Source: Porphyromonas sp.
Lineage (GTDB): Bacteria > Bacteroidota > Bacteroidia > Bacteroidales > Porphyromonadaceae
Assembly: GCA_030529525.1 (NCBI GenBank)
Contig: JAUMWS010000008.1
Coordinates: forward strand, 1-34,654
Length of the DNA: 34,654 bases
Reading direction: 5' to 3'
Under the pieces are notes generated by a model. That model was not told the DNA's origin, did no database searches, and saw only the letters and a list, made by a program, of their open reading frames with translations. The position numbers and the translations under genes are program-made. Positions 1 to 22,843 of the stretch are shown here, piece after piece; within the stretch, counting starts at the first letter, position 1; each line of letters begins with the position of its first letter.

Positions 1-111
1 TACATAACTAACGCCATTTTAACGACCATAAAAATACTCAGAAAGCTACTTTTTTTAATGCGTCAGCCCTGAAATATCTCTCTGTAAAAAGCGCATTGTT
101 ATTAGTTTTTT

Positions 112-9842: not shown

Positions 9843-12505
9843 CTTTCCTCCTCTGTGTCTTCTGTTTCATTTCCGAAAGGAATGCTCTTCATTCCTGTCG
9901 CTTCACCAAGTAGACGATTTGTTTCCAAAAACTCCTCTCCGCTGTCTACATCGGTTTGTTCCAAATCCGGAGTCTCCTCTTCGGCTGCTGTCGATTCTAC
10001 TTTCTTGCCCTCTTTCTCTTCTATATCTCCTACTTCAAAGGTACTTAATCTCTTTCCTTTGGCTCGAATACCTTTGACAGAGATATACTCATCTGCATCT
10101 ATAACTATTGGTAATCTGTGCTGATCTTTCCCTTTGAAAGAGACTTCAAACAGAGGATACTGTTCATCGGACAAAGTTATCATCTCACATCCATCTCCTA
10201 AGATATTTTCCCTCTTTATGGAATCCTCTACTTGAAAACGTTTGATATAGGTATAGTCTTGTTCCGAATCAAAATAAATCAGTGTCCAGATCTTATTCGG
10301 ATCGTACTTTTCTATGATAAATATGTCGTTCTCAAAATGATTTGTATCACTAAACGACGTAATATAGACCTCTCCATTCTGACGAATGACCAGTATCTTG
10401 TCTTCCGGGAAGAACTCTCCCAAGAAAGCCCCTCTCTCGTCATAGTTCACCCTATTGACGTCATGATCGAACCACACCATACGTCCTCCAAGAGTGGATA
10501 CTCCTTTCTGCTTCAGCACTATCTTATGTACATCTCCCTTGGTAAGCAGGTATCCTCTTGATGAACGTCCCATGATACGGATAGAAGAAAAATCTTTCTC
10601 GAACACCAATTGACGCTGATTGGGTTTCGGTTTAAGCACCACTCTTACTGTCTCTGCTTCGCCATTCGGATTGGCGGAAAAGTAGACAAACTTAGACCCT
10701 TCTCCCCCATATCCTACGGGATAATCTCTGTCTCTCATGAAAGAGGTTACACTAAAGCGTTTGATAAAGTAGTGTCCGTGCTTACCCTCTCTATGAATGG
10801 TATTGTAGACCGTACGCTTATCATTCTTCACAAAACGGGCTACATGAATGATATCCTTGCCGACAAAAGCTTTCTCCGAAACCTTTGTTATGATATACTT
10901 GGCATCTTTAAAGAACACTATGATATCATCTATATCCGAGATGTTACAGACAAACTCATCTTTCTTAAGCCCCGTTCCGATAAATCCCTCTTGTCTGTTG
11001 ACATACAGCTTCTCATTCTTCTCTACCACTTTAGAAGCCTCTATGGTATCGAAGCTACGTACTTTTGTTCGACGGGGATACTTGGCTCCATACCTCTCCA
11101 ACAAGGAGGAGTACCACTCTATGGTATATTCGATGATATGATTCATCCTATGCTGAGCCAACTCCATCTCTTTCAAAAGAGACTCCAAAAGGATCTGGTT
11201 CTTTTCCTCATTGAAGCGCAAGATTCTTGCCATACGTATTTCCAGCAATCTCTTGAGATCTTCATCCGTTACCGGACAAACAAGGTCTTTAAGTTCCTTA
11301 GCCAATGCGATACGAATGTAAGCTACAGCCTCTTCCGTACTTTTGGCTTCCTCGAACTTCTTCTCTTTGTACACTCTTTTCTTAATAAACAGTTGCTCCA
11401 AATAGGCAAAAAGATGCTTTTCCCTCAGCTCATCGTACTCCACCTGAAGCTCTGCATAAAGATGGTTTTTGGTGCGTTCGACATTATCTCTCAGCACATC
11501 CGATACAGAGACAAAAACCGGCTTATCGTCCTTTATCACACAACAGTTCGGAGAGATGCTTATCTCACAATCGGTAAAAGCATAGAGGGCATCTATCGTC
11601 TTGTCGCTTGATGTTCCAGGCGCCAGCTGTATCTCTATATTTGCCTTTTCGGAGGTCTTGTCGTCCACTTTCCGTACCCGAATCTTTCCTCGCTCATTGG
11701 CTTTCAGTATCGAATCTATAAGAGAAGATGTGGTCTTACCGAATGGTAATTCATCTATGACCAAAGTCTTAGAATCTTTCTTGATTATGTTGGCACGCAC
11801 TTTCAAGTTACCCCCACGCTCTCCGTCATTATACTTTGAAACATCTATATGACCGCCGGTCTGGAAGTCCGGATAAAGCCTGAAGGTTTCCCCTTTCAGA
11901 TGGGAGATACAAGCTTGAAGTATTTCCGAAACATTGTGAGGCAAGATTTTGGAAGAAAGCCCAACGGCTATCCCCTCAACTCCCTGCGCCAATAAGAGCG
12001 GGAATTTTACCGGCAGACGAACCGGCTCTTTATTAGCTCCGTCGTAGGAGGGACGGTACTCTGTTATTTTCGGACTGAACAGCACTTCCTTGGCAAACGG
12101 AGTGAGACGAGCCTCGATATAACGTGCAGCTGCGGCACCATCGCCTGTGAGGATGTTTCCCCAGTTTCCCTGACATTGAATAAGAATATCTTTCTGCCCC
12201 AACTGTACCAAGGCGTCCGATATACTGGCATCGCCATGAGGGTGAAGCTGCATAGAAAAACCTACAATATTTGCCACCTTTATAAGCCTGTCGTCCATCT
12301 GTGACATCGTATAAAGAATACGTCTTTGGACAGGTTTCAACCCATCCGCAATGTGCGGAACAGCCCGCTCCAATATCACGTACGAAGCGTAGTTGACAAA
12401 CCAAGACTTATACATCCCCGTAAGGACATAAGTAGATCCTGACGAAGACGCCCGTTGAGGTTCTCCGGAATGCTCTGTATATTGCTCTATTTCTATGCTA
12501 CTCAT
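9839..12505 (-). CDS. parC: DNA topoisomerase IV subunit A
   Basis: 888 aa type IIA topoisomerase A subunit, which cuts and passes DNA to decatenate chromosomes with ParE. The breakage-reunion domain has SYVILERAVPHIADGLKPVQ, HPHGD (88-92) and the catalytic Tyr129 in AAAARYIEARL. The residue matching E. coli GyrA Ser83 is Ala93, while Asp87 is kept as Asp97. The C-terminal beta-pinwheel lacks a GyrA box (QRRGGKG), favouring ParC over GyrA. An acidic tail of about 65 residues (rich in Glu/Asp) ends the protein. parE is not adjacent. A -7 box lies about 32 bp upstream. Confidence 0.92.
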   Translation of the reverse strand: MSSIEIEQYTEHSGEPQRASSSGSTYVLTGMYKSWFVNYASYVILERAVPHIADGLKPVQRRILYTMSQMDDRLIKVANIVGFSMQLHPHGDASISDALVQLGQKDILIQCQGNWGNILTGDGAAAARYIEARLTPFAKEVLFSPKITEYRPSYDGANKEPVRLPVKFPLLLAQGVEGIAVGLSSKILPHNVSEILQACISHLKGETFRLYPDFQTGGHIDVSKYNDGERGGNLKVRANIIKKDSKTLVIDELPFGKTTSSLIDSILKANERGKIRVRKVDDKTSEKANIEIQLAPGTSSDKTIDALYAFTDCEISISPNCCVIKDDKPVFVSVSDVLRDNVERTKNHLYAELQVEYDELREKHLFAYLEQLFIKKRVYKEKKFEEAKSTEEAVAYIRIALAKELKDLVCPVTDEDLKRLLEIRMARILRFNEEKNQILLESLLKEMELAQHRMNHIIEYTIEWYSSLLERYGAKYPRRTKVRSFDTIEASKVVEKNEKLYVNRQEGFIGTGLKKDEFVCNISDIDDIIVFFKDAKYIITKVSEKAFVGKDIIHVARFVKNDKRTVYNTIHREGKHGHYFIKRFSVTSFMRDRDYPVGYGGEGSKFVYFSANPNGEAETVRVVLKPKPNQRQLVFEKDFSSIRIMGRSSRGYLLTKGDVHKIVLKQKGVSTLGGRMVWFDHDVNRVNYDERGAFLGEFFPEDKILVIRQNGEVYITSFSDTNHFENDIFIIEKYDPNKIWTLIYFDSEQDYTYIKRFQVEDSIKRENILGDGCEMITLSDEQYPLFEVSFKGKDQHRLPIVIDADEYISVKGIRAKGKRLSTFEVGDIEEKEGKKVESTAAEEETPDLEQTDVDSGEEFLETNRLLGEATGMKSIPFGNETEDTEEER

Positions 12506-12544: not shown

Positions 12545-13380
12545 CAACTTTTTCCTCGTTCCATTTATCTGGCGATGTTTAGGGCCCCTTCGGTATTCCT
12601 CATTTTATTAAAATCAAAAAATGCTCTTGAGTTTAAGATAAAAAATTCAGAATAAATATCAGTCGTAAACAATCCGATGTTTTTCTAATAAGTTTTCCCT
12701 TTTTCTTGAGTAGAAATCGGCCTCATTCTCCTCTTCTATTTTTATATATTTAGTACCGACAAGAAGGTTTCAAGTCCGGCTTCTCTATTTTATCTTTCAC
12801 CTCTATTTTCAGAGGGTGCCCAAAGTGTTAAACCAGAGCTATTTTGTTAACACTAATTATAGTACATATTAGTCAAAAACGATAAACAAGCATATTCTTT
12901 CGGCTTAACCCGTTTAATTTTTCAGTAAACACGTTTACCATTTTCATTTAACCCGTTTACCGAATTCAATTAACGTGTTTAGAATTTTCAATCAAACTGC
13001 TGAAAATGAAAAACTTAGGCAATTACTTCATTTTTTAGGGCTATTTGCAAGACAATTTTACGTTATGAAATATTTACAGTAAATCGGGATTGATTTTTTC
13101 TTTTTTAACCTAAAAACAAGCCATAAAACCGACCAAGAGTCAAAAAGTTTGAGACTTCGCATTTCTCCATACAACACTGATTTACAGAAAATTAAACGAT
13201 CTACTATCCAATTTCAGGAGAAATACAAGAAGAAAAACACTCTGTTCCACAAGAGGTGAAAAGCTTCATTTTTATATAAAAGTACATCAAGTGAGGGTCC
13301 TCAAAATGGGGTTCACAATGAGATTTAAATCAAATAAAACCTGATTATAATTTCAATTCTAAAAAAGAGTTAGAAAATAA
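12545..13380. other. AT-rich non-coding region between parC and the hydrogenase operon
   Basis: About 840 bp with no credible ORF or known RNA on either strand. It holds a short ACTAAT/ATTAGT inverted repeat (12852-12873), an array of four GTTTA-type dyads (12905-12982), a TCAAAAAGTTTGA dyad (13140-13152) and a TGAGG-GT-CCTCA dyad (13292-13303). Gene-poor spacing of this size is exceptional in this otherwise compact window, so it is likely regulatory or a remnant. Confidence 0.6.
12905..12982. repeat. Four operator-like dyads at about 21-22 bp spacing
   Basis: Sites are TTAACCCGTTTAA (12905-12917), GTAAACACGTTTAC (12925-12938, perfect 6-bp arms around AC), TTAACCCGTTTAC (12948-12960) and TTAACGTGTTTAG (12970-12982, the inverted form). 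Dyad centres are about 20.5, 22.5 and 22 bp apart, two helical turns, so bound dimers would share one DNA face. The palindrome type recalls LacI-family operators, but the regulator is unknown. Confidence 0.5.
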
Positions 13381-13412
13381 TTGCATCATATTACTTTTTG
13401 GGCTTATCTTTG
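13381..13412 (+). promoter_or_regulatory. Bacteroidetes promoter of the hydrogenase operon
   Basis: TTG (13381-13383) and TATCTTTG (13405-13412) are separated by 21 bp, fitting the -33/-7 consensus. Transcription would start near 13418, giving a leader of about 30 bases before the ATG at 13450. Confidence 0.65.
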
Positions 13413-13449: not shown

Positions 13450-14916
13450 ATGGCCTACACAAACAATGTAATGATTGTCCGACACAAGCTTTTGGCGGCT
13501 CTCGTCAAGCTTTGGAAAGAAGGGCAACTCGTAGAAAAAATTGACTACCTTCCTATCGAATTTTCACCTCGTCGATCTAAGGTACTTGGGAGATGCTGTC
13601 CCCATAAGGAGCGTGCTGTATGGAAGTATAAATGCTTCCCTCTGCTCGGCTTTGATATGACCGATGAAGAAAGCGAAGTGGATATGCTTTCCAAGTACGC
13701 AAAGAAAGCTCTCGAACGAGAATCTCCCAACAAAGAGAACTTGATGTGTGTGATAGACGAGGCATGCACCTCTTGCGTTCAGATTAACTACGAAGTCTCC
13801 AATCTCTGTAGAGGGTGTGTAGCTCGTAGCTGTTATACCAATTGTCCGAAAGATTCCATAAGTTTTCAGAAAAACGGACAGGCTCAAATCAACCATGATA
13901 CCTGCATAAGTTGCGGAATATGCCATAAGTCTTGTCCGTATCATGCGATCGTGTACATTCCCGTACCATGCGAGGAGGCTTGTCCTGTAAAAGCTATTTC
14001 AAAGGATGAGTATGGCGTAGAGCACATAGATGAGAGTAAGTGTATATACTGTGGGAAGTGTCTTAATGCCTGCCCATTCGGTGCTATTTTTGAAATATCA
14101 CAGACCTTTGATGTTCTCCAAAGTATTCGCAAGGGAGAGGAAGTAATTGCAATCATAGCACCTTCAATACTTGGGCAGTTCAAAACAACCATAGACCAAG
14201 TTTATGGAGCATTCAAAGAGATTGGCTTTACCGACGTTATAGAAGTGGCTCAAGGAGCTATGGACACTACAAGCAACGAGGCTCACGAACTTCTCGAAAA
14301 ACTTGAAGAGGGACAGCCATTCATGACTACTTCTTGCTGCCCATCGTATATAGAGTTGGTCAATAAGCATATTCCGGAGATGAAACCATTCGTTTCCTCT
14401 ACTGGTTCTCCTATGTATTACACCGCGCGTATTGCACGTAAAAAGTATCCGAATGCCAAGATCGTGTTTGTGGGTCCTTGCATTGGCAAACGTCAGGAAA
14501 TACGTAGAGATGAAGAAGTAGACATGATTCTCACATTTGAGGAAGTTGGTGCTATCTTCAAAGGAATGGACATAGAGCTACAACAAGCTCCCGCTTATAA
14601 AATGGCATTTAACTCTGTGCGTGAAGCTCACGGCTTCGCCCTCAACGGTGGTGTCATGGGTGCAGTAAAGGCTTATCTGGGTAAAAATGCAGACAAAGTC
14701 AATGGCATCGAAGTGGCAGACTTGAACAAAAAGAATATCACAATGCTTCGCAGCTACGCTAAAACGAAGAAAGCTCCGGGGCAGTTCATAGAAGTAATGA
14801 CCTGTGAGGGTGGTTGCATATCCGGACCAAGTGCATACAACGATATCGTATCGGGACGTCGTCAGCTCAGCAAGGAGCTTACGAACGTAAAGGAGACGTA
14901 TGCAGACAGCAATTGA
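13450..14916 (+). CDS. Monomeric [FeFe] hydrogenase, group B-like
   Basis: 488 aa from the ATG at 13450; an in-frame ATG 69 bp earlier lies upstream of the -7 box and is unlikely. The enzyme would produce or take up H2 with ferredoxin-type electrons in the cytoplasm. A cysteine-rich N-terminal part (C106, C109, C120, C123, C128, C132) precedes two ferredoxin motifs (C152/155/158/162 and C198/201/204/208), with an extra C174/C178. H-cluster loops are TSCCPSY (294-300), GPCIGKRQE (342-350) and EVMTCEGGCISG (448-459). They supply ligands C297, C344, C452 and C456; the proton-transfer cysteine is C296. GPC replaces the group A MPC, and L3 lacks the GGGQP tail, matching group B (B1/B3) enzymes. 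No NuoE/F-like partners are nearby. The end overlaps hydE by 17 bp. Confidence 0.93.
   Translation: MAYTNNVMIVRHKLLAALVKLWKEGQLVEKIDYLPIEFSPRRSKVLGRCCPHKERAVWKYKCFPLLGFDMTDEESEVDMLSKYAKKALERESPNKENLMCVIDEACTSCVQINYEVSNLCRGCVARSCYTNCPKDSISFQKNGQAQINHDTCISCGICHKSCPYHAIVYIPVPCEEACPVKAISKDEYGVEHIDESKCIYCGKCLNACPFGAIFEISQTFDVLQSIRKGEEVIAIIAPSILGQFKTTIDQVYGAFKEIGFTDVIEVAQGAMDTTSNEAHELLEKLEEGQPFMTTSCCPSYIELVNKHIPEMKPFVSSTGSPMYYTARIARKKYPNAKIVFVGPCIGKRQEIRRDEEVDMILTFEEVGAIFKGMDIELQQAPAYKMAFNSVREAHGFALNGGVMGAVKAYLGKNADKVNGIEVADLNKKNITMLRSYAKTKKAPGQFIEVMTCEGGCISGPSAYNDIVSGRRQLSKELTNVKETYADSN
14889..14895 (+). promoter_or_regulatory. Shine-Dalgarno-like site of hydE
   Basis: AAAGGAG lies 4-5 bases before the hydE ATG at 14900, inside the 3' end of the hydrogenase gene. 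Bacteroidetes starts rarely carry a strong SD, so its presence in this overlap supports the chosen start and coupled translation. Confidence 0.55.
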
Positions 14917-22439: not shown

Positions 22440-22843
22440 CTGAAAAACGTTTAGATCCACTACACTTTTTGGCTTCTTAAGACCCGATAAGCCGGTGTCG
22501 CTTTCGGCCATTTCGAATAGAGCCGTATCTTTTTTGTTTTTAACCCGTTCAGAAGCAAGAGTTAAAGTGTCAAGAACTCTGTTTCAAGCTTTGATCTTTG
22601 CGAGTCGGGGTTCGATTTGTAGAAATCAAGACTTGAAAACCGGAAACCAAGATTTGATTTGGATTTCTTAGAACGTTCACACAAAAGAACAAACAGGATA
22701 AATATCATTTTTGAAAGTGATAACGCCAATTTTATCGGAGACCCCAAAAGGAGTATAGAGCTTTATCTTCGATGTGATGTATCACAAAGAAAGAGTCTCT
22801 ATCAATGTCCGAAACAAAGGTTCGATTTTAATGTCTATCTTTT
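22440..22843. other. Non-coding divergent region with degenerate repeats
   Basis: About 400 bp between the SRPBCC-like gene and the ileS promoter. A 61-codon - strand frame (22562-22747) lacks any supporting signal and its predicted peptide has a loose internal repeat (KSNLGF... and KSNPDS...). Underlying it are two 42-bp units (22619-22660 and 22577-22618) with about half of their bases in common, and a TCAAGACTTGA palindrome (22626-22636). It looks like a worn intergenic repeat. Confidence 0.35.

Follow-up and report, generated by a model that had tools for sequence, protein, structure and literature searches.

The BrickBuilt MITE of Porphyromonas gingivalis is always intergenic and carries tandem repeats of 23 nt, about two helical turns, between a leader and a tail; strain ATCC 33277 contains 19 copies, one of which has 18 full repeats (PMC4596501). 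The element described here, F1, shares with BrickBuilt the genus Porphyromonas (in the NCBI sense), a strictly intergenic location and tandem repeats (21–22 bp in F1) placed between a leader and a tail. By inspection, however, the BrickBuilt repeat, AGAYCATARTATCCTCTCRTRTG, differs from the repeat unit of F1, which is TTTAACNNGTTTAnnnATTTCA-like and 21–22 bp long, and the IS5-type terminal repeats of BrickBuilt, GAGACCTTTGCA, differ from the F1 ends, TTTTTATATATTCC.. and TTTTTATATAAAA (PMC4596501). Unlike BrickBuilt, F1 usually has four dyads, a near-fixed length of ~542 bp, no terminal repeats, a minimum spacing along the chromosome and helical phasing that continues beyond its ends. The BIME-2/REP elements of Escherichia coli are likewise dispersed and intergenic, and have been suggested to contribute to genome organisation; BIMEs are assembled from short palindromic units, in contrast to the 22-bp dyad array, ~542-bp length and minimum spacing of F1 (PMC6379681). 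Among the open-access papers listed for BrickBuilt, for Porphyromonas repeats and MITEs, and for dispersed gyrase-associated or phased repeats, none describes F1, or the second family F2 presented below, in its title or the opening lines of its abstract. The BOX element of Streptococcus pneumoniae is modular like F1, with a left module, a tandem module of variable copy number and a right module. We know of no sequence common to BOX and F1, and BOX has not, to our knowledge, been reported with a fixed helical length or an even spacing.

F1 came to light in a 34,654-nt stretch of Porphyromonas DNA (the window), in the gap between parC, which starts at 12505 and is transcribed leftward, and hydA, which has a listed ORF opening at the TTG at 13381 and a probable start at the ATG at 13450. 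An earlier note, made from the letters of the window, had pointed to an unusually long gene-free region holding four similar dyads two helical turns apart. Both observations hold: the gap contains no listed ORF of ≥100 aa, and direct reading gives four AAC-NN-GTT dyads on the forward strand at 12904..12982, namely CTTAACCCGTTTAA (12904–12917), GTAAACACGTTTAC (12925–12938), TTTAACCCGTTTAC (12947–12960) and ATTAACGTGTTTAG (12969–12982); successive centres are separated by 21, 22 and 22 bp. The second is a perfect dyad, and the centre dinucleotides are CC, AC, CC and GT. With at most one mismatch, TWAACNYGTTTA occurs 9 times in the window against 2.66 expected, a count reached in 0/100 shuffles. 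Exact matches in the whole window genome number 148 (67 + 81), compared with 9 (5 + 4) for the reversed control, where here and in the TTTTTATATAAAA counts below palindromic sites are counted on both strands.

Four phased dyads, one of them perfect, could serve as the operator array of a dimeric transcription regulator controlling the hyd genes or a large regulon, and the AAAC-N2-GTTT form resembles the sites of the TetR-type protein PsrA. The same array, however, recurs at 79 strong loci in Porphyromonas canoris among the matches listed, with no preference for divergent genes or for gene direction; in the window it stands ~400 bp from parC and 468 bp from hydA, and a fixed length of 540 bp would be needless for an operator. 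TetR_N proteins are also few, 2 and 1 in the two element-bearing genomes, and gave no lead to a dyad binder. We consider the regulon operator very improbable. Because the same array is scattered over unrelated gaps, between divergent, convergent and tandem gene pairs alike, which the earlier note had itself named as a refuting outcome, a local operator is not supported, and the lineage-specific intergenic repeat that the note had listed as an alternative is supported at dozens of unrelated intergenic loci. The note's other refuting outcome, absence from orthologous loci, was not observed, as the array is found in the orthologous parC–hydA gap of P. canoris. An iteron-like replication or segregation site fits poorly with 79 strong copies among the matches listed in a genome of 10 contigs, and the one copy queried had no plasmid match. 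Rather than a hydrogenase operator, the array is the core of the dispersed noncoding element F1, to which parC and the hyd genes appear to be bystanders. The suggestion that a dimeric protein binds the sites cooperatively remains likely, given four similar dyads two turns apart.

The interval 12905–12982 given in the earlier note locates the core array correctly, and the whole unit is considerably larger. The TWAACNYGTTTA matches occur in pairs with fixed order and conserved spacers, and an alignment of 35 P. canoris copies revealed a ~540-bp block that begins with TTTTTATATATTCC and ends with TTTTTATATAAAAG. The block is conserved throughout, save for a stretch near the right end in which length alone is kept. 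In a search with the P. canoris element profile (nhmmer), the window copy matched over 12723–13302 (E 2e-72); combined with the analysis of ends and lengths, this places the window element at 12739..13281 on the forward strand, 543 bp from TTTTTATATA on the left to TTTTTATATAAAA on the right, filling most of the parC–hydA gap. Its left end, TTTTTATATATTTAG (12739..12753), is found in 94/94 complete copies, by selection, and its right end is the 13-mer TTTTTATATAAAA at 13269..13281. The inner right wing spans 13192..13265 and is variable in sequence, conserved in length and phased at ~11 bp. 

Beyond the element, an ~11-bp phased oscillation of AT and GC content marks an outer left wing at 12667..12730 and an outer right wing at 13285..13348.

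The family is confined to two sister species among the genomes searched. P. canoris is a bacterium of the dog mouth. Its genome in our set (G008, 99% complete) is taken as that of strain OH2762, and the window genome (G000) is 89% complete. The published OH2762 assembly has 14 contigs and 2.20 Mb, and in that report the word 'intergenic' is absent and 'repeat' appears once, as 'repeated' (PMC4700951). Among 11 other genomes of the genus, TWAACNYGTTTA has 251 matches in P. canoris and 0–2 in each of the other 10. Exact TTTTTATATAAAA occurs 93 times in P. canoris (reversed control 13), 75 times in the window genome (control 0) and twice in the other 10 genus genomes. A 150-position sequence model, R1, identified 79 F1 loci in P. 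canoris, counting only listed matches below E 1e-20 and merging duplicated arrays. In the window genome it gave 121 matches at E 1e-3, contig-end fragments included, with the best 150 candidates scored, and 44 loci were read there. The only match elsewhere was a weak one in G006 (E 3e-5), both in the other 10 genus genomes (best 150 of up to 998 candidates each) and in 36 other family genomes that include these 10 (best 81 candidates each); since only the best candidates per genome were scored, the absence elsewhere and the tally of weak copies are not exhaustive. In three P. canoris loci (L263, L276 and L281, at C5:773 kb, C11:55.9 kb and C11:137.6 kb) the array is duplicated, giving seven or eight dyads, and in eight others (L278, L183, L160, L258, L157, L295, L257 and L259) the first site has decayed (e.g. 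TTAAAGTATT..). Contiguous stretches of the same genome also hold local repeats in which 12-mers such as AAACCTTTAGTG and AAAAAGTTTCAT abound, every one of them limited to 1–3 places.

Most F1 copies occupy corresponding positions in the two genomes. Both flanks match those of a P. canoris element, on the same sides and in the same orientation, at 29/44 window-genome loci; one flank matches at 8/44 and none at 7/44, with P. canoris covered by its 79 loci, and in 5 of the 8 one-flank loci the other flank is ≤158 bases long because the contig ends there. In 6/9 pairs for which the element sequences were compared, no P. canoris copy is closer than the orthologue. Among 72 scorable P. canoris loci the neighbouring genes are divergent at 21, convergent at 15 and in tandem at 36, and these loci have no bias toward gene ends or gene direction; a seeming orientation bias in the first 39 loci ('--' 16, '++' 4) was gone at 72 (21 vs 15). 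By its sequence, F1 is a vertically inherited, dispersed, noncoding element.

A dispersed intergenic family with many copies in only two sister species among the genomes searched might also be an old non-autonomous, MITE-like transposable element, with its minimum spacing due to target immunity and no present function. MITEs that carry tandem repeats internally are known from P. gingivalis (PMC4596501), inversion breakpoints coincide with F1 copies, and one copy has a left-type end in place of its right end. Flanks of 94 copies, however, lack target-site duplications (mean shared word 3.28 vs 3.33 permuted; words of ≥6 in 3/94), and by inspection the two ends have no inverted repeat beyond the self-complementary TTTTATATA, which is all they have in common. 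A phage, plasmid or viral origin was rejected on one query each: the window copy had no phage match, a P. canoris copy had no plasmid match and the exact core pattern had no match in viral contigs. In comparisons of 11 window-genome stretches with P. canoris, counterparts devoid of F1 coincided with rearrangement breakpoints. The orthologous positions at 29/44 loci, together with a length and a helical phase that are kept though sequence is not, and a phase that extends past the element, make the MITE-like origin unlikely.

Length is held far more tightly than sequence. Mean pairwise identity is 0.567 within the window genome, 0.671 within P. canoris and 0.586 between the species (55 copies). 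Complete copies number 94 (55 from P. canoris and 39 from the window genome), a set that leaves out the eight P. canoris loci whose first site has decayed, two loci lacking a normal right end (L262 and L001), copies cut by contig ends and duplicates. At L001 (window genome, C2:5241–5834) a left-type end, TTTTTATATATTCCATCCCG, stands in place of the right end, and the locus coincides with a rearrangement breakpoint in the comparison with P. canoris. The length is 540–544 bp in 80/94 copies, and the other 14 measure 531 (three copies), 537, 538, 539, 553 (five), 554 and 558 bp (two); 9 of these 14 deviate by about one helical turn. The distance from the left end to the array is 171–175 bp in 89 of the 94, 163 in 3 and 184 in 2, and that from the array to the right end is 366–371 bp in 88, 379–380 in 4 and 384–386 in 2. 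Orthologues have the same outlying lengths (L304/L158, L305/L182, L022/L187 and L025/L267), so that independent one-turn events number only ~3 to 6; one further event common to orthologues amounts to +16 to +18. Seven of the eight loci with a decayed first site measure 542–544 bp, and L295 measures 568 bp. Over 23 orthologous pairs the element differs in length by 0–3 bp, whereas the 27 neighbouring spacers retained by the filter, which have a median length of 160 bp, show a median difference of 4 bp and a largest one of 65 bp. A neutral repeat equally diverged would be expected to carry many more indels.

The constancy of length is accompanied by a periodicity in base composition. AT content oscillates with a period of ~11 bp in the inner right wing and for ~64 bp beyond both ends, in DNA that is unrelated from locus to locus. 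The outer phasing has a period of 11.25 bp and a power of 0.30 on the left and 0.40 on the right (99% null levels 0.14 and 0.16), is significant in each species separately and is weak or absent past 64 bp; no such periodicity was found upstream of 339 control T-rich sites. AT peaks fall at −13, −23, −34, −45 and −58 on the left, at 10, 21, 33, 43, 55 and 65 on the right, and at −26, −37, −48 and −59 in the inner right wing. A profile of AT content built from the 55 P. canoris copies has a positive correlation with 37/38 window-genome copies in each of the three wings. Because orthologues of many tested copies are among the training copies, the two sets are not fully independent; the window copy itself gives r values of 0.33, 0.19 and 0.26. 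The correlation turns negative at 5-bp shifts in either direction. Its recovery near 11 bp is partial (right outer wing 0.13 at −11 and 0.03 at +11; right inner wing 0.18 at +11 and 0.02 at −11; left wing 0.12 at +11), and is clear on a single side of each right wing. Judged from copy lengths and AT profiles, the parts of F1 hold one helical phase over ~540 bp and a further ~64 bp of host DNA at each end.

At the right end, such phasing is reminiscent of DNA gyrase sites. The E. coli gyrase motif covers 130 bp, with a ~36-bp centre at −16..19 and ~47-bp wings at −63..−17 and 20..66 in which a 10.75-bp GC periodicity is explained by wrapping (PMC6379681), and a periodicity of 10–11 bp is reported for all gyrases examined (PMC12324340). 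At the right end of F1 both wings are periodic at ~11 bp (AT 0.32–0.86), and its mirror symmetry fits several centres; at the left end the outer wing alone is so, the inner side having no clear 11-bp signal (best period 15). In size, in period and in its layout of a centre between wings, the right end resembles the gyrase motif, which makes gyrase the leading candidate for a wrapper there. The end centres of F1 are very rich in AT, in contrast to the preference for guanine at gyrase cuts trapped by quinolones (PMC6379681). The same phased element could instead have its ends wrapped by another nucleoid protein, HU-, histone- or SMC-loader-like: ~11-bp AT/GC phasing indicates DNA lying on a surface and names no protein, the end centres are AT-rich, and F2 has no gyrase-like ends, so that gyrase would leave one of the two families unexplained. 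With a period above 10.5 bp and a reach of ~64 bp, the pattern nevertheless suits gyrase better than a nucleosome-like left-handed wrap, judged by the topology of wrapping and the published motif (PMC6379681), and a wrapper other than gyrase is possible but doubtful. One candidate was rejected, as the Lrp/AsnC domain (PF01037) has 0 matches in both element-bearing genomes. A match is present in 9/12 genomes of the genus, G001 being the third without one. Lrp/AsnC proteins are known DNA wrappers.

The centres of the dyads differ between the species. In the 55 P. canoris copies, those of sites 1–4 are nearly fixed as GT (55), AC (54), AC (55) and GT (51), and at site 1 the 39 window-genome copies have GG, CT, GT, CC or CG. 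Such a change across a whole species, at loci that are for the most part orthologous, suggests co-evolution with a trans-acting binder, or gene conversion. Pairing between centres might also point to a structured noncoding RNA family, since in the window genome complementary centres exceed expectation for sites 1 and 2 (20/39 vs 13.9, p 0.017) and for sites 2 and 4 (12/39 vs 6.8, p 0.012). These two pairings are mutually exclusive, however, and the other four site pairs are not significant. The window copy folds no better than its shuffles (z-score −0.68), and the 152-column core has as its consensus fold a single hairpin of 9 pairs (covariation term −0.32), whose two variable inner pairs are disrupted in 7/49 and 8/49 rows. 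The sole Rfam match in the window is a tRNA, and an RNA would leave the phasing of the flanking DNA unexplained. An RNA family is thus extremely improbable.

F1 copies keep their distance from one another. The 79 P. canoris loci among the matches listed define 72 gaps, the smallest 6.1 kb, compared with a minimum gap averaging 0.30 kb and never above 2.65 kb in 5000 random placements; gaps under 6 kb averaged 16.9 in those placements and were never fewer than 5. Taken alone, F1 gaps are uneven (CV 0.84, up to 111 kb). In P. canoris C5 680–988 kb, F1 density drops toward dnaA (C5:958.4 kb) and F2 loci persist; the last 196 kb of the dnaA contig hold 2 F1 copies against 9.8 expected from the first 680 kb, with limits chosen afterwards. 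With such variation in density, F1 is not evenly spaced over the genome as a whole. No clear origin or terminus emerged from GC skew.

The next element along the window is of the second family. Its array, at 22572..22694 on the forward strand and 9.6 kb from F1 (F1 at 13.0 kb, F2 at 22.6 kb), has CAAGnCTTG-type dyads at ~21-bp spacing. F2 consists of four such dyads 21–22 bp apart, bordered by degenerate AACnnGTT dyads that are similarly spaced; other examples lie at L234:10390–10534, L240:14420–14564, L249:6781–6925 and L252:18793–18937. F2 lacks F1-type ends, and its phasing runs from about −40 to 200, plus one isolated window at −340 to −280. No F2 match was found in the other 10 genus genomes among the best 150 of up to 661 candidates per genome. 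The two families interleave along the chromosome at quasi-regular intervals. Of the 53 F2 loci used, a lower bound from a list in which many places occur on both strands, none lies within 3.4 kb of F1 (nearest 3.5 kb), against 13.7 expected and a minimum of 3 in 5000 runs. Positions for these tests were typed from match lists, and the 6-kb and 3.4-kb cut-offs were fixed after the distances had been seen; the minimum-gap and CV tests are independent of them. Scanned with both profiles (E 1e-3), eight stretches totalling 367 kb of P. canoris gave 24 gaps with a mean of 9.6 kb, a minimum of 3.6 kb and a CV of 0.46 vs 0.86 expected (P 0.0002), and 233 kb of the window genome gave 17 gaps of 3.6 to 11.6 kb. 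These stretches were picked around F1 copies with orthologues and are therefore not a random sample; the whole-genome F1 statistic is free of that choice. Two slots hold different families in the two species. At C5:91.1 kb P. canoris has F1, and two flank-matching window-genome contigs have F2 matches (C8 start and C9 11.7 kb); at C5:288.5 kb P. canoris has F2, and window-genome C16 has F1 copies at the matching ends. Both slots sit on rearrangement breakpoints, so recombination there is likely.

From this architecture, demonstrated at the level of sequence, we infer the proteins and the function. The explanation that we favour, at somewhat less than even chances, is a helically phased nucleoprotein element in which a dimer-bound array and DNA-wrapping ends, perhaps occupied by gyrase, organise the chromosome in ~10-kb units. 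A dimeric sequence-specific protein would load cooperatively on the four dyads (seven or eight in three copies), all of which would face the same side of the helix, and the DNA on either side of the array would be wrapped on a protein surface, most likely that of gyrase at the right end. Some 80 such complexes per genome would, with the F2 arrays, serve as markers or insulators of ~10-kb topological or loop domains. More tentatively, two Porphyromonas species may have evolved sequence-specified, chromosome-wide and quasi-evenly spaced nucleoprotein stations about every 10 kb, with F1 and F2 in conserved slots and the family differing between species in the two slots compared.

Supercoiling domains of E. 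coli are ~10 kb in size, and we know of no general sequence signature for the boundaries of bacterial supercoiling domains. If the proposal is correct, these species would have a chromosome whose topological domains are written in, and readable from, its sequence. Were F1 and F2 to set the boundaries, the positions of domains in P. canoris would be predictable from sequence and the boundaries individually deletable. A constraint on helical phase over 540 bp and its flanks would also offer a natural template for a large, defined DNA–protein complex. Even if the function proves to be another, the retention of length and phase where sequence is lost would represent an unusual form of selection in noncoding bacterial DNA.
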